Below are positions 5,844-16,738 of a DNA stretch of 64,000 bases, one piece after another. The notes under the pieces were generated by a model that ran no database searches, was not told the origin of the DNA, and saw only the letters and a program-made list of their open reading frames with translations. Source of the stretch: Roseibium sediminicola (GTDB lineage Bacteria; Pseudomonadota; Alphaproteobacteria; Rhizobiales; Stappiaceae); NCBI RefSeq assembly GCF_023156505.1, contig NZ_JALNMJ010000003.1, forward strand, positions 248,001-312,000. The letters are read 5' to 3'. A program made the position numbers and the translations under genes. Position 1 is the first letter of the stretch. Each line of letters starts with the position of its first letter.

Positions 5844-6839
5844 TCACCCGATCAGCCAGATTCCTCCGAGCACGAACAGCGCCAGGAACGCGGTCTGGGT
5901 GACCAGCATCCAGATGGCCGGGCCGCCGACTTCCAGGAGTTTCGGGATCGAGGTCTTCATGCCGACGGCGGCGATCGCCGCCAGCAGAGCCCAGCGGGAG
6001 ACGTGACCGGCCAGGTCCTTGACCATTTCCGGGATCAGGCCGAGAGAATTCAGCGCGGCCAGCACCAGGAAGGCGACGACAAAGGCCGGCATGATCGGCG
6101 GACGGGCTCCGCCGGGTTCCGCGTGCTTGCGCAGGATCAGGGCCGCGACGAGCACGATCGGCGCCAGCATGGTGACGCGGATGAGCTTGACCAGCGTGGA
6201 CAGATCGCCGGTTTCCTCAGAGATCGAAAATCCCGCACCGACCACCTGGGCGACATCGTGGATCGTGCCGCCGAGAAAGACGCCGGTCGCATCCTGGGAC
6301 AGGCCCAGAGAGGACGTCAGGATCGGATAGAAGATCATCGCCAGGGTGGAGAGCACGGTCACGGTGATCACCGTGAAGGCAAGATCGCGTTCGGCATGCT
6401 CGCGCTTGGGCAGGATAGAGCCGATGGCCATGGCGGCCGACGCGCCGCAAATGGCGACCGCGCCACCGGAGAGAAACGAAAACAGCCGGTCGCGGCCGAA
6501 CAGACCGCCAATCAGAAGCGAGAAGCCGATCGTCGCCAGAACGCCGACGATCACAAGAAGCAGAAACGGCAGGCCGAGCTGCTGCACCATCTCCACGCTG
6601 ATGCGCACACCCAGGAGAGCCACTCCGACCCGGAGCAGCGTGCGCGCGGAAAAGGCGATGCCGGCGCCGGTGCGTTGTTCCTCGGAGAGAAAGTTGAGCG
6701 GCATGCCCAGAAGGATTGCCATCAGCATGGCCGGCGCGCCGTAATGCTCGTTCAGGAACTGGGCGGCAATCGCCACCAGACCGGCAATCGCAATGCCCGG
6801 GAACAGCCGGTTCGCCCGGTCTTTCAATGGTGACACCAT
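5844..6839 (-). CDS. YeiH-family putative sulfate/sulfite exporter
   Basis: A 331-residue integral membrane protein with about ten hydrophobic helices. It contains the family's internal hallmark stretches LLRVGVALLGVRIS, SGGAVAICGASAAMAI and GGTIHDVAQVVGAG. The YeiH group (UPF0324, putative sulfate exporter family) is thought to export sulfur oxyanions, but transport is rarely proven. AAGGA precedes the ATG at 6839. Its start lies 18 bases behind the stop of the di-heme cytochrome c gene, so the two are likely one transcription unit. The desulfonation-type cluster about 2 kb away would release sulfite, which offers a rationale, though the genes are not in the same operon. Confidence 0.85.
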   Translation of the reverse strand: MVSPLKDRANRLFPGIAIAGLVAIAAQFLNEHYGAPAMLMAILLGMPLNFLSEEQRTGAGIAFSARTLLRVGVALLGVRISVEMVQQLGLPFLLLVIVGVLATIGFSLLIGGLFGRDRLFSFLSGGAVAICGASAAMAIGSILPKREHAERDLAFTVITVTVLSTLAMIFYPILTSSLGLSQDATGVFLGGTIHDVAQVVGAGFSISEETGDLSTLVKLIRVTMLAPIVLVAALILRKHAEPGGARPPIMPAFVVAFLVLAALNSLGLIPEMVKDLAGHVSRWALLAAIAAVGMKTSIPKLLEVGGPAIWMLVTQTAFLALFVLGGIWLIG

Positions 6840-8177: not shown

Positions 8178-8660
8178 ATGCAGACCAAACTGAAAACCGC
8201 CTTGCTTGTCCTGACGCTTCTTTCGTCGCCCGCTTTGGCCGAAATCGAACACGCGCGCGACCTGATGGAGGCCAACCGCTACGAAGAGGCAATGAAGGAA
8301 CTCTGGCCGGCTGCGCGTTCCGGCAATGCCGACGCCGAGGAGCTGATCGGTGTCATGTATGCCATGGGGCTCGGCGTCGAGCGCGACGACCAGCGGGCCT
8401 TCGAGTGGTACTTGAGAAGCGCCATGAAGGGCCATCCCGGCGCCCAGTCCGGTATCGGCTGGTACTATGAGGTCGGCCGCGGCATGCCGGCGCCCGATCT
8501 TGTCCGGGCCTACATGTGGTACACGCTCTCGGCCATCGGGGGCGATCCTGATGCGGCGATCTCTCTGGAAGAGGTGGTCAAAAAAATGACCAAGGAAGAG
8601 ATTGAAAAGGCGCATATCCTCGTCGGCGATTACAAGGTCTGGATGTATCCGTTCAATTGA
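8178..8660 (+). CDS. Secreted Sel1-like repeat protein
   Basis: A 160-residue protein with a clear signal peptide ending in SSPALA-E. It is followed by about three Sel1-type helical repeats, recognisable by AEELIGVMYAMGLGV, AFEWYLRSAMKGHPGAQSGIG and AYMWYTLSAIGGDPDA. Sel1 proteins serve as periplasmic adaptors or signalling scaffolds. The specific partner is unknown. AGAGGG about 12-15 bases upstream can act as ribosome binding site. It diverges from the di-heme peroxidase with practically no intergenic space, so its promoter must lie within that gene's 5' part or the starts are misplaced. Confidence 0.8.
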   Translation: MQTKLKTALLVLTLLSSPALAEIEHARDLMEANRYEEAMKELWPAARSGNADAEELIGVMYAMGLGVERDDQRAFEWYLRSAMKGHPGAQSGIGWYYEVGRGMPAPDLVRAYMWYTLSAIGGDPDAAISLEEVVKKMTKEEIEKAHILVGDYKVWMYPFN

Positions 8661-8867: not shown

Positions 8868-8908
8868 ACACCGCGCCAAATGACTATTGGGCGCGGTGTT
8901 TTTCGTTT
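8868..8908. terminator. Bidirectional terminator between Sel1 gene and dctP
   Basis: ACACCGCGCC (8868-8877) pairs with GGCGCGGTGT (8890-8899). TTTTTCGTTTT follows on the plus strand; pyrimidine-rich sequence follows on the minus strand. It terminates the rightward Sel1 gene and the leftward TRAP operon. Confidence 0.8.
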
Positions 8909-9966
8909 TAGTTCAGATCCGCGTCACGCGAGGCGTTGACGTCGGCTTCCGCTGCCGCAACGGCCTCTTCCAGGGCACCGAAGATCTCGCCGCCACGGGC
9001 AACGTTTTCCTGGAACCAGGCATAGACCGGGGTTGCGGCTTCCTTGAAGGCGGCCTTCTGTTCCGGGGTCGGCACGTAGAGATCGCCGCCACCGGCCACG
9101 AAGTCCTCATAGGCCTTGATCGACTTGCGCTTCGGCGAGGCGAAGGTGGCCTGCTGCAGGGCATAGAAGCCGTCGACGACAACGCGGCGCAGGTCTTCCG
9201 GCATGGACAGGAACTTCTCGTTGTTCATCCACCACAGCGCGCCCATATAGGCGTGGCCGTCCAGGGTGACATATTGCAGGCCGGCATCCGGGAACTTCAT
9301 GCCCATGATGTCGGTGATGCCGTTCTTGGAACCTTCGACAACGCCGGTCTGGAAGGAGGTGAACAGCTCCGGCCACGGGATCGGGGTCGGGGAAGCGCCA
9401 AGGGCCTTGACCAGCTCCTGCGGCAGGTCGGCGACCACAGTGCGGATTTTCAGACCTTCCATATCGGCCGGCATGGCGACGCGGCGCTTGGTGTTGGCGA
9501 AGTTGCGCCAGCCGCCGGTATTACCGATGGTCATCAGGCGGATCGCATTATCGCTGTCTTCCAGGGCCATGTCGCGCATGGTGCGGGTGAACTGGCCGGA
9601 CAGAACATGTTCGGCGATACGGTCGTCGCTCATCATGTAAGGCAGGTCGAGAACCTGCACATACGGGAAGATGCCCGACGCGCCGCCGGAGGTGGAAATG
9701 TAGATGTCGATCGCGCCGCCGGCGACGCCCTGCAGGCATTCCGCGCCGTTGGAGCAGAGCTGCGTGCCGATGAAGAGTTCGACTTCGATGGCGCCGTTGG
9801 AGGCGGCTTCGACGAAGTTCTTGAAGACCACCAGGCCGTCATAGTCCTCGTCGTTCTCGTTGGAGTTGGCGGTTGCGCGCAGCGTATAATCCGCGGCAAT
9901 CGCGCTGAGGCTCGAGCCGGCGAGCATAGCCGCGACGGTGAGCGTTTTGAGGGCAGTTTTGAGCAT
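8908..9966 (-). CDS. dctP: TRAP transporter substrate-binding protein (DctP type)
   Basis: A 352-residue periplasmic receptor with a signal peptide ending in SAIA-A. The TRAP hallmarks include the conserved arginine segment KIRTVVADLPQELVKALGASPTPIPWPELFTSFQTGVVEG and the WWMNNEKF stretch near the C-terminal lobe. It captures an anionic organic substrate for the membrane subunits encoded just upstream. AGGGAGG precedes the ATG and the gene lies 26 bases behind dctM. It closes the operon that begins with the flavin monooxygenase, so its substrate is probably the monooxygenase substrate, inferred to be an organosulfonate such as sulfoquinovose. A family-level fit to dicarboxylates cannot be excluded. 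Confidence 0.92.
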   Translation of the reverse strand: MLKTALKTLTVAAMLAGSSLSAIAADYTLRATANSNENDEDYDGLVVFKNFVEAASNGAIEVELFIGTQLCSNGAECLQGVAGGAIDIYISTSGGASGIFPYVQVLDLPYMMSDDRIAEHVLSGQFTRTMRDMALEDSDNAIRLMTIGNTGGWRNFANTKRRVAMPADMEGLKIRTVVADLPQELVKALGASPTPIPWPELFTSFQTGVVEGSKNGITDIMGMKFPDAGLQYVTLDGHAYMGALWWMNNEKFLSMPEDLRRVVVDGFYALQQATFASPKRKSIKAYEDFVAGGGDLYVPTPEQKAAFKEAATPVYAWFQENVARGGEIFGALEEAVAAAEADVNASRDADLN

Positions 9967-9992
9967 GAGGTTCCTCCCTAAGTAAGCTCAAA

Positions 9993-11468
9993 TCAGTTGG
10001 CAAATCCGGTCAGACGCGGGATCGTCATGGAAAGTGCCGGGATATAGGTGATCAGGAAGATCACGGCGATCTCCACCGCGAGAAACGGCAGAATGGCTTT
10101 GGCGATGGTTTCGACCCGTTCCTTTGAAACCGAGGCCGCGACGAACAACACCAGCCCCATGGGCGGTGTGGCCAGGCCGATGGTCAGGTTGACGCTCATG
10201 ATGATGGCGAAGTGAATCGGATCGACGCCCATCTCGATGAAAATCGGGCCGAGGATAGGTCCGAGAATGATGATGGCCGGACCCGCGTCCAGGAACATGC
10301 CGACCACAAACAGGAGCAGGTTGATCAGGAACAGCAGGATCAGCGGGTTGTCAGACAGGGTCAGCACGAAGTCGGCCATGATTTCGGGTGCATGGCTGAG
10401 ACTGACCACGGTCTTGAAGGCCATCGCCGCGCCGACCAGCAGAAGCACGACGGCGGAGGTGATGCCGGCCCGGTTCAGGATGCCGGGCAGGTCGTTCAGC
10501 CTGATCGAATGCAGCACGAAGAAGCCGATGATCAGCGCATAGGCGACGGCGACAGCGGCCGCTTCCGTCGGCGTGAACACACCGATCAGGATACCGCCCA
10601 GAATGATGATCGGTGTCTGCAACGGCGCGACCGCCTTTTTGCAGACGGTGCGGAAATCCGCGGAGACGGCCTTGCGCAGGCTCAGCAGGATGCCGTGCGA
10701 GACTGCCAACAGCACCAGGAAGAGAACGATAGCCGTCACGCCCGACAAATCCACAAAGGCCGTGGCTACCATCATGAGCAGCGTTGCCAGATTGAGGCGC
10801 AGCAGCAGCAGGGACACCCAGTATTCGACCGGGGCCATTTTCTGGCCCGGATTGACGATCCGCTGGGCTTTCGGCAGGTCGTATTTGTCCGCCATGAAGC
10901 GCACCATCAGCATCAGGCCGATGCCCACCATAACGCCCGGTACGATCCCGGCCAGGAATAGGGCGGCGACGCTCTCACCCATGACATAGGCGTAGATGAT
11001 CATGATGCCGGAGGGCGGGATGATCGGACCGATCACCGAGGAGGCCGCGGTGACGGCCGCCGCGAACTTGCGGGTATAACCCTGCTTTTCCATCGCTGGG
11101 ATCAGCATGGAGCCGAGCGCGGAGGTATCGGCGACGGCGGATCCCGAAAGGCCCGCGAACAGCATCGACGACAGGATGTTCACATGGGCGAGGCCGCCGC
11201 GCAGATGGCCCATCAGCGCCTGCGAGAATTCCACCAGGCGGGTGGTGATGCCGCCCTTGTTCATCATCTCGCCCGCGAGCATGAAGAACGGAATCGCCAT
11301 CAGAGGAAAGCTGTCCATGCCGTTGTAGACGTTGCGGTAGAGCAGCGTGATGTCGCGTTCCTGGCCGTTCAGCCACAACAGCATGCCGGGCGCGGCCAGA
11401 AGGCCGAAGAACACCGGCAGACCGATCATCAGGAAGACGAGAAAGACGGGAAGAAACCAGATCAGCAT
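9993..11468 (-). CDS. dctM: TRAP transporter large permease (DctM type)
   Basis: A 491-residue membrane protein with the DctM signatures PLMAIPFFMLAGEMM, SAVADTSALGSMLIP, IGPIIPPSGIMII and the C-terminal GLATPPMGLVLFV. It is the sodium-coupled transport subunit. It is longer than the common 425-430 residues: an extra hydrophobic stretch lies at about residues 205-270, between the two transport halves. Its start overlaps the dctQ stop by one base (TGATG), which indicates translational coupling. Confidence 0.92.
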   Translation of the reverse strand: MLIWFLPVFLVFLMIGLPVFFGLLAAPGMLLWLNGQERDITLLYRNVYNGMDSFPLMAIPFFMLAGEMMNKGGITTRLVEFSQALMGHLRGGLAHVNILSSMLFAGLSGSAVADTSALGSMLIPAMEKQGYTRKFAAAVTAASSVIGPIIPPSGIMIIYAYVMGESVAALFLAGIVPGVMVGIGLMLMVRFMADKYDLPKAQRIVNPGQKMAPVEYWVSLLLLRLNLATLLMMVATAFVDLSGVTAIVLFLVLLAVSHGILLSLRKAVSADFRTVCKKAVAPLQTPIIILGGILIGVFTPTEAAAVAVAYALIIGFFVLHSIRLNDLPGILNRAGITSAVVLLLVGAAMAFKTVVSLSHAPEIMADFVLTLSDNPLILLFLINLLLFVVGMFLDAGPAIIILGPILGPIFIEMGVDPIHFAIIMSVNLTIGLATPPMGLVLFVAASVSKERVETIAKAILPFLAVEIAVIFLITYIPALSMTIPRLTGFAN

Positions 11469-12058
11469 CAGTCAGCCCCCGCCATGTCCGCGTCCGGAAT
11501 GATCGGCAGGCGTTCGCCGCCGCCGAGCAGTGAGATCAGGTTGCGCAGGACCAGTTCGATATTGACCAGGACCAGCAGGATCACGCCGACAAACAGCGAC
11601 AACATCATCCAGCTGCGCGGGACGCGGATCCATTGGTCAAAGGTCAGGCTGCCCGGCACATAAAGCGAGGCGGTGGCGAATTTGCCGCCGAAACCGGTGA
11701 CCTCGCCATAACCGATCTGGACCGCAACCACGAGCACGGCGAGAGAGATCAGCAGCAGGACAAGGGAGAGCAGATTTCCAAGAATCCGGGGCAGGGCATG
11801 GGTCAGCATGTCGATGGCGACAAATCCGCCGCGCCGGAAGGCCGTCGGCGCCATCAGGCCGGTCATCCAGAGCATGCAGAACCGGGCAGCTTCGTCCGGC
11901 CAGGGCAGGGCATTGTTGAAGACGTAGCGGGCGACGACCTGAACCAGGATCGCCACCACCATCAGTGCCACGGCAAGGATGCCGATCCAGCGGCCGATCC
12001 GCAACAGATGCGAATTGAGCCAGTCGAGCGGTGCAAGGACCGCCAGCATAATGCCCAT
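11468..12058 (-). CDS. dctQ: TRAP transporter small permease (DctQ type)
   Basis: A 196-residue protein with four predicted membrane helices, the usual DctQ topology. It has the conserved VARYVFNNALPWPDEAARFCMLWMTGL region between helices two and three, where the W-x-E(D)-E motif is recognisable. It forms the membrane complex with DctM. The unusually hydrophilic tail ends in a short acidic stretch. It follows the flavin reductase gene by 58 bases and overlaps dctM by one base. Confidence 0.9.
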   Translation of the reverse strand: MGIMLAVLAPLDWLNSHLLRIGRWIGILAVALMVVAILVQVVARYVFNNALPWPDEAARFCMLWMTGLMAPTAFRRGGFVAIDMLTHALPRILGNLLSLVLLLISLAVLVVAVQIGYGEVTGFGGKFATASLYVPGSLTFDQWIRVPRSWMMLSLFVGVILLVLVNIELVLRNLISLLGGGERLPIIPDADMAGAD

Positions 12059-12116
12059 CTGGGCTCCTCCCTAAGTTCCCTCCGGAACGGGGCGTTCGCC
12101 GCCCCGGTTTCCGCGC

Positions 12117-12632
12117 TTATTCTGGCGCGATTTGGCCGAGCTTGCCCGCAAAAAAGGTCAATGCATCTCCCTGGCGCATTTCCGCCTGCATGACTTCGCC
12201 GAGCACGATCAGATGGTCGCCGCCTTCATAGGCGGCATAGCGTTTGCACTCGAACCGGGCGAGGCAGTTTTCGATCAGGGGCACGCCCTTGTCGTCGATC
12301 CGGTGCGGCAGCTGGTCAAAGGCGTGGGCGTTGCGCACGAAACCGTTGCAGACCTCGGCCTGGTGATGACTGAGCACGTGGATCGCATAGTGTTTGGCGG
12401 TCTCGAAATAGCGGAACCGGCGCGAGCCCTTGTCGGGCATCCACAGTACCAGCGGCGGGTCCAGCGACACGGACGAGAAACTGTTGGCGGTAATGCCAAC
12501 AGGGCCGTCCGCCGAATGGGTGGTCACCACCGTGACCCCGGTCGCGAAACGCCCGAAGGCATCGCGCAGGAGGCGGGTGTTGTCCGTATCCGGTTCGAAT
12601 GTAACGGGATGATTGGCGTTCTGCATGGTCAT
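12117..12632 (-). CDS. NAD(P)H:flavin reductase, SmoA/HpaC-like
   Basis: A 171-residue protein of the flavin reductase-like FMN-binding family. The split-barrel signature FATGVTVVTT, GITANSFSSVSLDPPLVLW and the C-terminal GDHLIVLGEV are all present. Such enzymes supply reduced flavin to a two-component monooxygenase, here almost certainly the LLM-family enzyme at the head of the same operon. Its start codon overlaps the stop of the aldo/keto reductase by one base. In the known sulfoquinovose monooxygenase pathway this role is filled by SmoA. Function as a flavin reductase is well supported; the partner is inferred from context. Confidence 0.88.
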   Translation of the reverse strand: MTMQNANHPVTFEPDTDNTRLLRDAFGRFATGVTVVTTHSADGPVGITANSFSSVSLDPPLVLWMPDKGSRRFRYFETAKHYAIHVLSHHQAEVCNGFVRNAHAFDQLPHRIDDKGVPLIENCLARFECKRYAAYEGGDHLIVLGEVMQAEMRQGDALTFFAGKLGQIAPE

Positions 12633-13522
12633 CAGGGCACCTCTTGTCCAAGGGCCGCCTCGTAGAGGCGATACCAGGTTTGCCGGTCAAGATTGACTTT
12701 CAGGGCATCGGAAATCCGGGAGACCCGTTCCACATTGTTGGTGCCCATGACCGGCAGGAGTTTTGCCGGATGAGCAAGCAGGAAGGCGACGGCAACCGCG
12801 GACCGGTCGACGCCATGTTCAAGCGCCAGTTCGTCCATGATCTTGCCGAGCGGGCCGCCTTCTGTGATCAGAGATCCGCCGCCGAGCGGCGACCAGGCCA
12901 TCAGCTTGGTGCCGAGGCGCTGGTGGAAGGCAAGATCGCCATTGGTGAAGGGCGAAATCTCCTTCAACGAAATCTCGATCTGGTTGGTGACCAGCTTGCC
13001 CGACATGGCGGATTGCAGCAGTTCCCAGTCCCAGGGGCGGAAATTGGAAACGCCAACGTTTCTCACCTTGCCGCTCTTGACCAGATCGTCGAGCGCGGCG
13101 CCGGTTTCCTGATGGTCCATGAACGGATCGGGCCGGTGGATCAGCAGGAGATCGATGGTCTCGATGCCCATGTCGGCAAGCGAGTACTCGACCGCGCGTT
13201 CGATATGGGCGCGCGAGGTGTCATAATATTTCACCTTGGCATCGGCATAACGCCCCATCGGCGCGACGATGTCGCACTTGGTGACGATTTCCATTTTGGA
13301 CCGCAGCGCCGGATTGGCCTTCAGCGCGCCACCCAGCACGGCCTCGGCCGCATAGCCGCCATAGATGTCGGCCTGGTCGAAGGTGGTGATGCCCTGGTCG
13401 AGGCAGGCCTGGATCTTGCGTTCCACATGGGCCGGCGAGGTGTCGCTGTCGTCGCCAAGGCGCCACATGCCATAGATCAGGCGGGAAAATTCAAGCGTTT
13501 CAGAGAGTTTGACGCGTTCCAT
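12632..13522 (-). CDS. Aldo/keto reductase, YdhF/SmoB-like
   Basis: A 296-residue AKR barrel. It has the D-x-A-x-x-Y-G-G catalytic segment (FDQADIYGGY), the lysine in EIVTKCDI, the histidine in LLIHRPDP and the cofactor loop SPLGGGSL, placing it in the YdhF-like subgroup. SmoB of the sulfoquinovose monooxygenase pathway, which reduces 6-oxo-glucose to glucose, belongs to the same subgroup. The reading frame is open further upstream, but the ATG at 13522 overlaps the previous stop (TAATG), showing coupled translation. The middle position between monooxygenase and flavin reductase strongly suggests it handles the aldehyde product. The exact substrate is inference. Confidence 0.88.
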   Translation of the reverse strand: MERVKLSETLEFSRLIYGMWRLGDDSDTSPAHVERKIQACLDQGITTFDQADIYGGYAAEAVLGGALKANPALRSKMEIVTKCDIVAPMGRYADAKVKYYDTSRAHIERAVEYSLADMGIETIDLLLIHRPDPFMDHQETGAALDDLVKSGKVRNVGVSNFRPWDWELLQSAMSGKLVTNQIEISLKEISPFTNGDLAFHQRLGTKLMAWSPLGGGSLITEGGPLGKIMDELALEHGVDRSAVAVAFLLAHPAKLLPVMGTNNVERVSRISDALKVNLDRQTWYRLYEAALGQEVP

Positions 13523-14676
13523 TAACGGCGGACTCCGTTTCCGAGCGGGGTGGCGGGGGTTTCTGCCGGAACGCGGCCATAGGCATGCGGAAGCGAGCAG
13601 GTCTTCAGATTCGGCAGCACGCGGGCGCCGAAATGCTTGGCTTCTTCCAGATGCGGATAGCCGGAGAAGATGAAGGCGCGGATACCCATCTTCTGGTAGC
13701 CCTCGATCTTGGACATGACCTGGTCGGTGGAGCCGACCAGCGCGGCGCCGCAGCCCGAACGGGCCCGGCCGACGCCGGTCCACAGGTTCTGTTCGATATA
13801 GCCGAACGCGTCGGCGACCTCGCGGTTCTTGGCCTGGTGGCTAACCCCGAGGGACTTGGCATCAAGGGCGCGTTCGCGGATGGCCGTGCCTTGGTCGTCA
13901 TCCAGCTTGGAGACGATGTAGTCGGCATATTCCTGCGCTTCCTTCTCGGTGTCGCGCACGATCATGTGGACGCGCAGGCCATAGTCGAGCGTGCGGTCAT
14001 ATTTCTCGGCGACCGCATGGACGGCCTTCATGCGGCCTTCCAGCTCTTCCATCTTTTCCGGCCACATCAGATAGACGTCGCAATGCTGGCCGCACAGGTC
14101 CAGGGCCGCCGGCGAATAACCGCCGAAATAGAGCAGGGGGCCGCCGGTCTGATAGGGGCGGACCGGATCGGTGGTCAGGCCCTTGAAATTGTAGACCTCG
14201 CCCTCGTAATTGATCTCGTCCCGGGTCCAGGCCTGTTTCAGGATCTCGACCACTTCGCGCGAGCGCTGGTAGCGGTAGCCGCTGTCGGCCTGCTCGCCCG
14301 GGAAGTCGGAGGAAATGATGTTGACCGTCAGCCGGCCCTTCAGCATGTGATCGAGCGTCGCAATGGTGCGCGCCAGCATGATCGGCTGCATCTCGCCGCA
14401 ACGCACGGCCGCCAGAAGATTGATTTTCTCGGTGATTGGCGCGCATCCGGCGACAAAGCTCAGCGTGTCCTGGCCCACCTGATAGGAGGACGGACACAGG
14501 ATGTTGCGGAAGCCCTGCGCCTCGGCGGTCTTCACGATGGACGAGCAATGCTCCCAGCTCGAGCGCAAGTGGCCTTCGGGAACCCCCAGAAACTGATAGT
14601 CGTCGGAACACAATGCAGCAAACCAGGATACCTCCGCTGCATCGAGATCCGGTGACGTGACTGGGACTGCGGTCAT
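13522..14676 (-). CDS. LLM-class flavin-dependent monooxygenase, SmoC/SsuD-like
   Basis: A 384-residue luciferase-like (bacterial LLM) monooxygenase related to alkanesulfonate monooxygenase. Typical stretches are EVSWFAALCSDDYQFLG, LARTIATLDHMLKGRLTVNIIS and GGPLLYFGGYSPAA. These enzymes use FMNH2 and O2 to cleave C-S bonds, giving an aldehyde and sulfite. The start at 14676 is chosen because GGGGAGGAA lies directly before it. It heads an operon with an aldo/keto reductase, flavin reductase and TRAP importer, the enzyme set of the sulfoquinovose SMO pathway. Another LLM function, for instance on a different sulfonate, remains possible. Confidence 0.85.
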   Translation of the reverse strand: MTAVPVTSPDLDAAEVSWFAALCSDDYQFLGVPEGHLRSSWEHCSSIVKTAEAQGFRNILCPSSYQVGQDTLSFVAGCAPITEKINLLAAVRCGEMQPIMLARTIATLDHMLKGRLTVNIISSDFPGEQADSGYRYQRSREVVEILKQAWTRDEINYEGEVYNFKGLTTDPVRPYQTGGPLLYFGGYSPAALDLCGQHCDVYLMWPEKMEELEGRMKAVHAVAEKYDRTLDYGLRVHMIVRDTEKEAQEYADYIVSKLDDDQGTAIRERALDAKSLGVSHQAKNREVADAFGYIEQNLWTGVGRARSGCGAALVGSTDQVMSKIEGYQKMGIRAFIFSGYPHLEEAKHFGARVLPNLKTCSLPHAYGRVPAETPATPLGNGVRR

Positions 14677-14815
14677 GAAATTCCTCCCCGGGATCAACCG
14701 TTTGAATGGCGAAGCACTCGTGCCGCCCGCATTTGAACGATTGAGGTTTCGCTATTTTCGTTTGTTTTCGATTGGCTTCACTTTGCCGTCGATTTCCTCT
14801 TGCATATCACCCGGT

Positions 14816-14829
14816 TTGATGTAAATCAA
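14816..14829. promoter_or_regulatory. Inverted repeat in the divergent promoter, GntR operator candidate
   Basis: TTGAT-N4-ATCAA lies in the AT-rich 192-base gap between the leftward desulfonation-type operon and the rightward GntR gene, 40 bases before the latter's start. It is the best palindrome in the gap. Confidence 0.4.
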
Positions 14830-14868
14830 TAGTGTATCAATTTCGAAAGACAGGCAACCGGAAACATC

Positions 14869-15579
14869 ATGCCCACCGCTTCGCAGTCGCCCAACGCGCT
14901 GCCGCTCTATGTGCAGATAAGTGAGCTTTTGATTAGGGATATCGCCGCTGGACGGCTGATTGACGGCGAGAGATTGCCGCCCGAAAGAGACATGGCCGAG
15001 GATCTTGGCATCTCCATCGGCACATTGCGCAAGGCGCTGGCGGATCTTACGGAAAAAGGCTTACTCGAGCGGATCCAGGGTTCGGGGAACTACATACGTC
15101 AGGGCGGCACCCAGGAAAGCGTCTACGCCATGTTTCGCCTGGAGCTTCTGTCGGGCGGCGGTCTGCCGCGCGCCGACATTCTGGACGTGACGCGATTGGC
15201 CAAGCCGGACGATCTGCCGGCCTTCGGTACAAGCGGCGAGGGAACCCGCATCCGCCGTCTCAGATATCTGAATGACGTGATGATCGCGGTCGAGGAAATC
15301 TGGCTCGACGGCGATGCCGGCACGGTCCGCCGCGATCTCCTGTCCGATTCTCTCTACCGCTACTACCAGAAACAGCTCGGTTTCTGGATCGCGCGCGCCG
15401 AGGACCGGGTGACCATCGGCAAGGTGCCTGACTGGGCGCCGGAGGTCTTTTCCCTCGTCCCGGGTACCGTCACCGGTTTCATCGAACGCTTCAGCTGGGC
15501 CGACCGGCCCAAGCCAATCGAATATTCGCGAACCTGGTTCGACACGAACCGGGCGCATTACGTTCAGCGACTGAAATAG
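14869..15579 (+). CDS. GntR-family regulator (HutC subfamily)
   Basis: A 236-residue regulator. Residues about 10-77 form the winged helix, with LPPERDMAEDLGISIGTLRKALADLTEKGLLERIQGSGNYI as the defining block. The rest matches the UTRA/chorismate-lyase-like ligand domain of HutC-type GntR proteins, which sense small metabolites such as sugars. It is transcribed divergently from the monooxygenase-TRAP operon and together with the Gfo/Idh gene 34 bases downstream. It therefore probably controls both directions, as a repressor relieved by the substrate or an intermediate. Confidence 0.9.
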   Translation: MPTASQSPNALPLYVQISELLIRDIAAGRLIDGERLPPERDMAEDLGISIGTLRKALADLTEKGLLERIQGSGNYIRQGGTQESVYAMFRLELLSGGGLPRADILDVTRLAKPDDLPAFGTSGEGTRIRRLRYLNDVMIAVEEIWLDGDAGTVRRDLLSDSLYRYYQKQLGFWIARAEDRVTIGKVPDWAPEVFSLVPGTVTGFIERFSWADRPKPIEYSRTWFDTNRAHYVQRLK

Positions 15580-15613
15580 GTGGGCCGCAAACCCGCCGCA
15601 CAAGGAGAATGAA

Positions 15614-16738
15614 ATGCCTGCAAAGGTACGTTACGGGGTCATTGGCTGCGGCATGATGGGGCAGGAACACCTGCGCAACATCGCATTGTTGCCGGACACC
15701 GAGGTCACTGTGATTTTCGAGCCCGACGCCGGCATGGCCGCCGAGGCTGCGCGCTTCGCGCCCAACGCCATATTCGTGGACTCGGTTGCGGAGCTGTTGG
15801 ATGTCGACGCGCTCGATTGCATCCTGATCGCCAGCCCCAACCATTGCCACGTGCCGCAGATGGAGGAAATCCGCAGGAAGCGCCCGCTGCCGCTGCTTGT
15901 CGAAAAGCCGCTCTTCACCGACCCGAAGGATCTCGCCGAGCTCGACACCTTCAAGGCGAATTACCCGGCACCGGTCTGGGTGGCAATGGAGTACCGCTAT
16001 ATGCCGCCGATCGCGGCCCTGATCGACCAGGCCGAAGCGGCGACGGGCGGCATCAAGATGCTGACCATTCGCGAGCACCGCTTCCCGTTCCTCGACAAGG
16101 TCGGCGCCTGGAACCGCTTCAACAAGTATTCCGGCGGAACCTTCGTTGAGAAATGCTGCCATTTCTTCGACCTGATGCGCCTGATCATGAAGGCCGAACC
16201 GGTGCGCGTGATGGCCTCCGCCGGTCAGGACGCCAACCACAAGGACGAGGTTTATGACGGCGCGCAGCCGGACATTCTCGACAATGGTTATGTGATCGTC
16301 GATTTCGAAAACGGCGCCCGCGCCATGCTGGAACTCTGCATGTTCGCAGAAGGCTCGCGCTACCAGGAAGAGGTGGTCGCCGTCGGGCCGCAGGGCAAGA
16401 TCGAAGCCTTTGTACCGGGCCCGGGACGGTTCTGGCCGGAAGAACTCGGCGAGCCGCCTGTGCCGCAGCTGGTCGTTTCGCCGCGCAGCCCGAAAGGACC
16501 GCGCCAGATCGATATCCCGGTCGATCCGACCATACTCGACGCGGGCGACCACAACGGCTCGACCTTCTATCAGCATGAGGGGTTTGTCGCCGTCGTGCGC
16601 GGTGAGAAGGCCCTGCCGGAAGTCACGCTAGAGGACGGCCGCCGGGCGGTGGAAATGGGCCTCGCCGCGCAGCAATCCGCGCGCACCGGGCAGGCTGTTC
16701 TGATCAGGCCGCAGTCTCTTTCCTCGGTCGCCTGCTAG
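15614..16738 (+). CDS. Gfo/Idh/MocA-family oxidoreductase; candidate NAD-dependent glycosidase
   Basis: A 374-residue protein with the N-terminal Rossmann motif GVIGCGMMG and the EKP motif (residues 97-99) that carries the family's lysine. The C-terminal half shows GGTFVEKCCHFFDLMRL. Members are NAD(P)-dependent sugar dehydrogenases, but some are NAD-dependent glycosidases, including the sulfoquinovosidases of family GH188 (SqgA). The gene follows the GntR regulator and starts with a strong AAGGAG site. Because the cluster lacks a classical GH31 sulfoquinovosidase, this protein is a good candidate for releasing the sulfo-sugar from its glycoside. It could equally oxidise a sugar intermediate. 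Confidence 0.8.
   Translation: MPAKVRYGVIGCGMMGQEHLRNIALLPDTEVTVIFEPDAGMAAEAARFAPNAIFVDSVAELLDVDALDCILIASPNHCHVPQMEEIRRKRPLPLLVEKPLFTDPKDLAELDTFKANYPAPVWVAMEYRYMPPIAALIDQAEAATGGIKMLTIREHRFPFLDKVGAWNRFNKYSGGTFVEKCCHFFDLMRLIMKAEPVRVMASAGQDANHKDEVYDGAQPDILDNGYVIVDFENGARAMLELCMFAEGSRYQEEVVAVGPQGKIEAFVPGPGRFWPEELGEPPVPQLVVSPRSPKGPRQIDIPVDPTILDAGDHNGSTFYQHEGFVAVVRGEKALPEVTLEDGRRAVEMGLAAQQSARTGQAVLIRPQSLSSVAC

Follow-up and report, generated by a model that had tools for sequence, protein, structure and literature searches.

Sulfoquinovose (SQ), a sulfur-containing sugar of plants and algae the production of which has been estimated at 10 billion tons a year (PMC10755693), can be used by bacteria through the SQ monooxygenase (sulfo-SMO, also sulfo-ASMO) pathway. 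In Agrobacterium tumefaciens, this pathway is accompanied by an ATP-binding cassette (ABC) importer of sulfoquinovosyl glycerol (SQ-glycerol) and a sulfoquinovosidase (PMC9594981, PMC8873060). In marine Roseobacter sulfo-SMO clusters, enzymes of glycoside hydrolase family 188 (GH188) are near-universal (PMC10755693). Import of SQ has been ascribed to ABC transporters (PMC12421959, PMC12133307, PMC8873060), and major facilitator superfamily (MFS) transporters are listed for Escherichia coli (PMC12608037). A related cluster was identified in Roseibium sediminicola (genome of 6.35 Mb in 62 contigs), in a window of 64,000 nucleotides (the whole stretch analysed; contig NZ_JALNMJ010000003.1, positions 248,001 to 312,000; coordinates below are those of the window). 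Comparisons of its genes indicate that it is very probably a sulfo-SMO operon serving SQ and SQ glycosides, with a tripartite ATP-independent periplasmic (TRAP) importer dedicated to it.

Six genes on the minus strand form the core of this cluster, with families checked against Pfam and NCBIfam. The smoC-like gene (13522-14676, PF00296) encodes a predicted FMNH2-dependent SQ monooxygenase of 384 amino acids, of the luciferase-like monooxygenase (LLM) class; its start is an ATG behind a GGAGG-type site, and the list of open reading frames (ORFs) has a longer TTG start at 14697. It is followed by genes for a smoB-like aldo/keto reductase (12632-13522, PF00248), predicted to convert 6-dehydroglucose to glucose, and a flavin reductase (12117-12632, PF01613), a putative supplier of reduced FMN. 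The TRAP importer is complete, consisting of the small permease DctQ (11468-12058, PF04290), the large permease DctM (9993-11468, PF06808, with TIGR00786 over its cut-off) and the solute receptor DctP (8908-9966, PF03480), whose N-terminal signal was judged by eye. Start and stop codons overlap at three junctions (TAATG for monooxygenase/reductase; TGATG for both reductase/flavin reductase and dctQ/dctM), and dctQ and dctP, each with a GGAGG-type site ahead of its start, follow after short gaps. Divergent from smoC, on the plus strand, are the genes of a GntR/UTRA regulator (14869-15579, PF00392 and PF07702) and of a Gfo/Idh-fold protein (15614-16738). Gene order, families, overlaps and the divergent pair are as reported by the first-pass annotation, which had proposed oxidative desulfonation of SQ with a TRAP importer, a proposal that the analyses below support. 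The coordinates it gave for the cluster (8908..16738) are correct but stop short on the left: three further genes, encoding Sel1-repeat, di-haem and YeiH proteins, accompany the core in many relatives.

A phmmer search of the PDB with the monooxygenase gave 702 and 697 bits to 7OH2 and 7OLF, which we take to be SmoC from the Agrobacterium work (the codes turned up in no relevant paper). The next chains were 7JV3 (190 bits) and SsuD (180 bits); nitrilotriacetate-type (NTA-type) and RutA chains scored below 40 bits, and the NCBIfam models of SsuD and SfnG were far under cut-off. This gap (702/697 versus 180 or less) rules out an NTA-type, RutA-type or plain SsuD enzyme, so that the grouping with another LLM clade, such as nitrilotriacetate or pyrimidine oxygenases, which the first-pass annotation had set against its own proposal, is not seen. 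Likewise, the aldo/keto reductase gave 419 bits to 7BBZ/7BBY, presumably SmoB from the Agrobacterium work (these codes also turned up in no relevant paper), the next four chains, YdhF (208) among them, scoring 208-211. The nearest NCBIfam model of the flavin reductase was FerA, at 202 bits below a cut-off of 260. Of the proposed match to the SmoC, SmoB and SmoA trio, the first two members thus stand by bit score as SmoC-like and SmoB-like, and the third is a PF01613 protein and not of the SsuE type, SsuE presumably belonging to another family. An SsuE homologue is held by many sulfo-SMO clusters, and others have none (PMC9594981). Genomes have been assigned to sulfo-SMO where SmoB and SmoC are co-localised within ten ORFs (PMC13372026), and here the two genes adjoin.

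The Gfo/Idh-fold protein is, by sequence comparison, a GH188 NAD+-dependent sulfoquinovosidase (SqgA). Its best PDB matches were 8ZN9 (551 bits) and 8QC2/8QC3 (372/367 bits), the best other chain scoring 53; 8QC2 and 8QC3 are GH188 NAD+-dependent sulfoquinovosidases (Kaur et al. 2023, PMC10755693). Of the nine ArSqgA residues named in that paper (K107, Y136, E163, R166, L170, K172, E189, H193 and H321), eight are kept at one fixed offset as K98, Y127, R156, L160, K162, E179, H183 and H313, among which R156, L160 and K162 are the residues of the sulfonate site. E163 is unmatched at that offset here, and likewise in FlSqgA. An inositol dehydrogenase was rejected (IolG, 99 bits against a cut-off of 355, versus 367 or more for the GH188 chains). 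No GH31 gene, the family to which we take the Agrobacterium sulfoquinovosidase to belong, lies in the cluster, as the first-pass annotation had stated; the absence of a glycosidase that this implied is overturned by SqgA. The genome has a single GH31 match, on another contig; its best PDB matches are alpha-glucosidases, and it was rejected as a sulfoquinovosidase, none being named, nor YihQ, among the 47 PDB matches listed at E <=1e-30. No signal peptide was seen in SqgA, as judged by eye, and since the enzyme also needs NAD+, the importer would have to carry any glycoside that is used into the cell.

The association of these genes in relatives is not due to chance. A scan with the monooxygenase gave at least 580 confirmed relatives, the best 80 of which were kept as loci; because these are the relatives nearest to the query, most of them titled as Roseibium or as genera of the Roseobacter group, the importer shares do not represent the pathway at large. 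Although some loci are cut by contig ends, matches to the flavin reductase were identified in 77, SmoB in 79, GntR in 80 and SqgA in 76. A TRAP importer is present in 64 loci and an ABC importer at the same spot in seven, in one of which (L061) it is a remnant, with fragments of the binding protein and ATPase in the usual slot. That either type fills this slot indicates that the importer belongs to the pathway. Twenty-three plasmid records were found; among the eight regions opened, seven are TRAP-type (Rhizobium sp. SL42, Paracoccus seriniphilus, Qingshengfaniella, Salipiger, Roseivivax, Roseicitreum and Ruegeria TM1040) and one is ABC-type (Marinovum). The TRAP version, which the first-pass annotation would regard as a distinct variant, is widespread.

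A survey was also made of 385 alphaproteobacterial genomes drawn evenly, the present one included, in which the best four to five first-look candidates per genome were scored. SmoC was identified at 74% or above in eight other genomes and DctP at 80% or above in ten others, with seven genomes in common (hypergeometric 4e-12, kinship ignored). In these seven the genes are contiguous in five (L105-L108 and L111), split at a contig end in one (G193) and on separate contigs in one (G310). The eighth SmoC genome (G349) had no DctP match, and its contig ends inside smoB. Two genomes with a DctP-like protein at 44-50% were not counted.

The three remaining genomes (G022, G117 and G222) possess the DctP orthologue and no SmoC. 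In their clusters (L125, L126 and L127), dctQMP precedes genes for a PfkB kinase, a LacD-like aldolase, an SQ-isomerase-like protein, GH188, a mutarotase and an aldehyde dehydrogenase; a DeoR regulator and the Sel1 and di-haem genes are also present, and DctP is about 82% identical. Families were tested for L125 alone, where the aldolase is of the tagatose-bisphosphate type. The clusters appear to be sulfo-EMP2-like (a sulfoglycolytic Embden-Meyerhof-Parnas type), judged against an enzyme set that is partly presumed. That one importer accompanies two SQ pathways of unrelated chemistry, both of them equipped with GH188, speaks most strongly for transport of SQ or SQ-glycerol, and supports the view that the importer follows the sugar and not the chemistry. 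At a further locus (L129), a distant TRAP importer (DctP 50%) lies beside relatives of the L125-type isomerase, aldolase and kinase; no GH188 match was found at this locus.

From this linkage, DctP is predicted to bind SQ or SQ-glycerol. Its best relative among the matches listed is 95% identical (Roseibium sp. Sym1), and its PDB scores are 114 bits for 4P47 and 92 bits for 8T9T (IseP). All 19 aligned sequences (down to 68% identity) share residues R154, R175, N215 and W198, which correspond, at a constant +2, to positions 152, 173, 213 and 196 of 4P47. These are carboxylate-binding and aromatic residues, the equivalents of which in IseP contact isethionate (PMC11668362); this isethionate receptor provides a sulfonate precedent among TRAP receptors. 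The clamp could therefore hold a sulfonate, but the residues give no indication of which one, as they are common in the family. Residues C71 and C77 and a polar stretch at approximately residues 30-43 are also invariant in the alignment.

Several observations weigh against a dedicated SQ importer. A conserved arginine has been found to restrict TRAP receptors to carboxylates (PMC4646407), and SQ has none; the AlphaFold model of DctP, built with 19 sequences, is poor (mean pLDDT 64.8). Nine of the 80 loci have neither importer, one of them ending at a contig end. In G310 the SQ-type TRAP lies on a different contig from smoC, beside which no smoB, reductase or sqgA match was found, and a SmoC-like protein at 48-53% occurs in 12 more survey genomes, not counted above, which do not overlap with the DctP genomes. 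With the L125 isomerase, the SQ isomerase model (cut-off 700) gave 252 bits, leaving the second pathway a prediction. A SmoB-like protein was also rejected as a sufficient marker: on rhizobial plasmids (L198, L199 and L200; 59-63%), no smoC match was found in the 19 kb opened.

It could be argued that the enzymes act on SQ and that the TRAP importer is a mere neighbour carrying another compound, for instance an aldonic or uronic acid. The usual preference of TRAP receptors for carboxylates, the family-wide occurrence of the clamp arginines and asparagine, and the existence of smoC without this TRAP would all agree with this. We consider it improbable, as otherwise alike operons carry TRAP or ABC in one slot, the same TRAP stands beside a different SQ-type pathway with GH188, and a DctP orthologue occurs in seven of the eight other SmoC genomes. 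Even less probable is service to another sulfonated sugar such as sulfofucose, although the substrate specificity of every part is predicted and Paracoccus has a known sulfofucose pathway (PMC12421959). The sulfofucose clusters described there contain enzymes of a sulfofucolytic Entner-Doudoroff type and all have ABC importers, whereas here SmoC, SmoB and GH188 have close matches and the GH188 sulfonate site is kept.

A 27-bp operator-like element, AATTGATACAC(T/C)ATTGAT(C/T)TACATCAA, was identified between gntR and smoC (14816-14842, minus strand). With up to four substitutions it occurs in the gntR-smoC gap of 77 of the 80 loci (missing in L020, L025 and L069), including six of the seven ABC-type loci, and in none of 1600 mononucleotide shuffles. 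Of the SMO loci that are less closely related, L105, L106, L108, L111 and seven of the eight plasmid loci carry it, and L107, L109, L110 and L191 lack it. The divergent GntR protein is the natural candidate for binding it. A global regulator of the FNR/CRP type could instead bind the element: within it is TTGAT-N4-ATCAA, which we take to resemble an FNR-type box, and the element is missing in L109 and also in L107, L110 and L191, where smoC has a GntR gene next to it. However, the genome of 6.35 Mb has one match to the full element at up to three mismatches, and the TRAP clusters under DeoR control (L125-L127) gave no match to it. A global site is on this evidence doubtful, with room left for a second regulator besides the GntR protein.

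Gene identities, conserved residues, conserved linkage and the occurrence of one importer with two pathways were observed directly; the following route is predicted from them, with each reaction, the substrate and the regulation conditional on it. DctP would capture SQ or, more usefully, SQ-glycerol, with R154, R175 and N215 holding the sulfonate, and DctQM would power import through an ion gradient. Cytoplasmic SqgA, with catalytic NAD+, would release SQ from the glycoside. SmoC, with O2 and FMNH2 from the PF01613 reductase, would then cleave the C-S bond to give sulfite and 6-dehydroglucose, which SmoB would reduce to glucose. The sulfite would exit via YeiH or be oxidised. Two PF00174 genes, of the sulfite-oxidase fold, are present in the genome. 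The GntR protein would sit on the 27-bp element and let go when its ligand accumulates.

Three genes extend the cluster leftward. A Sel1-repeat protein with a signal-like N-terminus (8178-8660, plus strand, PF08238) is encoded convergently with dctP, the coordinate given as its start lying a few bases from the likely TTG. Beyond it is a gene (6858 to about 8174, minus strand, PF03150) for a MauG-like di-haem protein of the cytochrome c peroxidase family with two CXXCH motifs. All NCBIfam models were below cut-off for this protein, the best being TIGR03981 (247 bits, cut-off 340); the MauG model TIGR03791 gave 120 bits against a cut-off of 443.85, so that it does not qualify as a MauG of tryptophan tryptophylquinone (TTQ) maturation. 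A putative sulfate (sulfite) exporter of the YeiH family (5844-6839, minus strand) follows 18 bp after the di-haem gene (PF03601, 222 bits; TIGR00698, 128 bits, below a cut-off of 232.6). An exporter of this kind fits a sulfite-releasing pathway, and it was identified in 20 of the 80 loci (in L056 on the other side of smoC), including all seven ABC-type loci. In two Roseibium loci without TRAP (L013 and L019), YeiH lies directly after the flavin reductase. Annotation of Ruegeria sp. TM1040 shows this leftward order too: TRAP, Dabb protein, TPR protein, cytochrome c peroxidase and putative sulfate exporter.

The di-haem and Sel1 genes occur together with the TRAP type of locus. Of the TRAP loci, 60 extend 7.4 kb or more downstream, and 49 of these have both genes, as against none of the seven ABC or nine other loci; the Sel1 gene is present in all 49 loci with a long di-haem match. 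In the survey, a di-haem gene at 61% or above was found in exactly the same ten other genomes as the DctP orthologue (hypergeometric 6e-20, kinship ignored), no more than about 1.3 kb from dctP, whether the setting is a monooxygenase cluster, an EMP2-like cluster or a stand-alone one; three further genomes had a homologue at 49-50% only. A further check covered 27 genomes, selected for the absence of TRAP or of the di-haem gene from their loci except for a few that possess them. In 13 without TRAP or with ABC (L013, L019, L020, L025, L027, L041, L053, L055, L061, L064, L069, L078 and L082) there was no di-haem match above 49% and no DctP match at E <=1e-80, and L010 had a di-haem orthologue and no DctP match, its dctM running off the contig. 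Seven genomes with DctP at 83% or above lacked a di-haem orthologue at 61% or above, as did two with DctP at 68-69%, and the idea that the TRAP importer requires the di-haem gene was rejected on these grounds. In the Pacificibacter loci L066 and L079 a 46-residue di-haem match is all that is left. The gene looks like a dedicated but dispensable accessory. A wider proposal is that DctQMP, Sel1 and the MauG-like protein form a movable periplasmic SQ-uptake module that plugs into unrelated SQ pathways in Alphaproteobacteria, marine ones above all, the di-haem/Sel1 pair acting specifically in uptake, for example by peroxide-driven modification or protection of a periplasmic partner. This is tentative and, taken whole, rather unlikely.

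Variation on this arrangement was observed in other loci. In L189 (Qingshengfaniella plasmid), L109 (G310) and L080, none of smoB, the flavin reductase gene and sqgA was matched next to smoC, possibly reflecting sulfur scavenging or decay; in L189 the TRAP genes directly follow smoC. An acetyl-esterase-like gene (11566-12462) lies between the flavin reductase and the ABC importer in L191 (Marinovum algicola pMaD9), perhaps serving acylated SQ lipids. A second SmoC-like group of approximately 50% identity (L092-L103, from 12 survey genomes) mostly has a SmoB-like gene upstream, and many of its members have a GH188-like match.

In the sulfo-SMO, sulfo-ASMO and SQ monooxygenase literature searched, no TRAP transporter for SQ was found; one may already be in print. 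Where "trap" occurs there it is a chromatography or instrument word (PMC12421959), and in other SQ papers it stands for ion trap, trap column or trapping a complex. Among the matches listed for MauG, cytochrome c peroxidase or Sel1 in combination with SQ, none mentions SQ. Uptake decides which bacteria compete for SQ. If this importer carries SQ or SQ-glycerol, DctP would be a marker of SQ use across several pathways, including in genomes with displaced or different enzymes, and the TRAP receptors would include one for a sulfonated sugar that lacks a carboxylate. Generic annotation (C4-dicarboxylate TRAP, Gfo/Idh oxidoreductase, LLM oxidoreductase) conceals the pathway in database records.

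Among known systems, the di-haem protein resembles MauG and MbnH in its PF03150 domain and two CXXCH motifs, and matches the models of both below cut-off. It differs in having no known partner protein, its neighbours being a TRAP receptor and a Sel1 protein. DctP shares with IseP an equivalent Arg-Arg-Asn clamp and an equivalent Trp at the base of the binding site (PMC11668362), but IseP binds a C2 sulfonate in a sulfate reducer and is not the nearest receptor by sequence. With the sulfo-SMO pathway of A. tumefaciens the cluster shares the SmoC-like monooxygenase, SmoB-like reductase and flavin reductase. That cluster was not among the 80 loci kept and was compared by description; by that comparison TRAP stands here in place of ABC and GH188 in place of the presumed GH31, so that neither Agrobacterium-type feature is present. 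The main text on the Roseobacter-clade sulfo-SMO clusters (Kaur et al. 2023, PMC10755693) contains none of the words TRAP, transport or permease, and the importer, the operator-like element and the di-haem/Sel1 pair described here go beyond it. The combination of SMO enzymes with GH188 is already published for that clade, whose clusters have these enzymes and SqgA in common with the Roseibium cluster.

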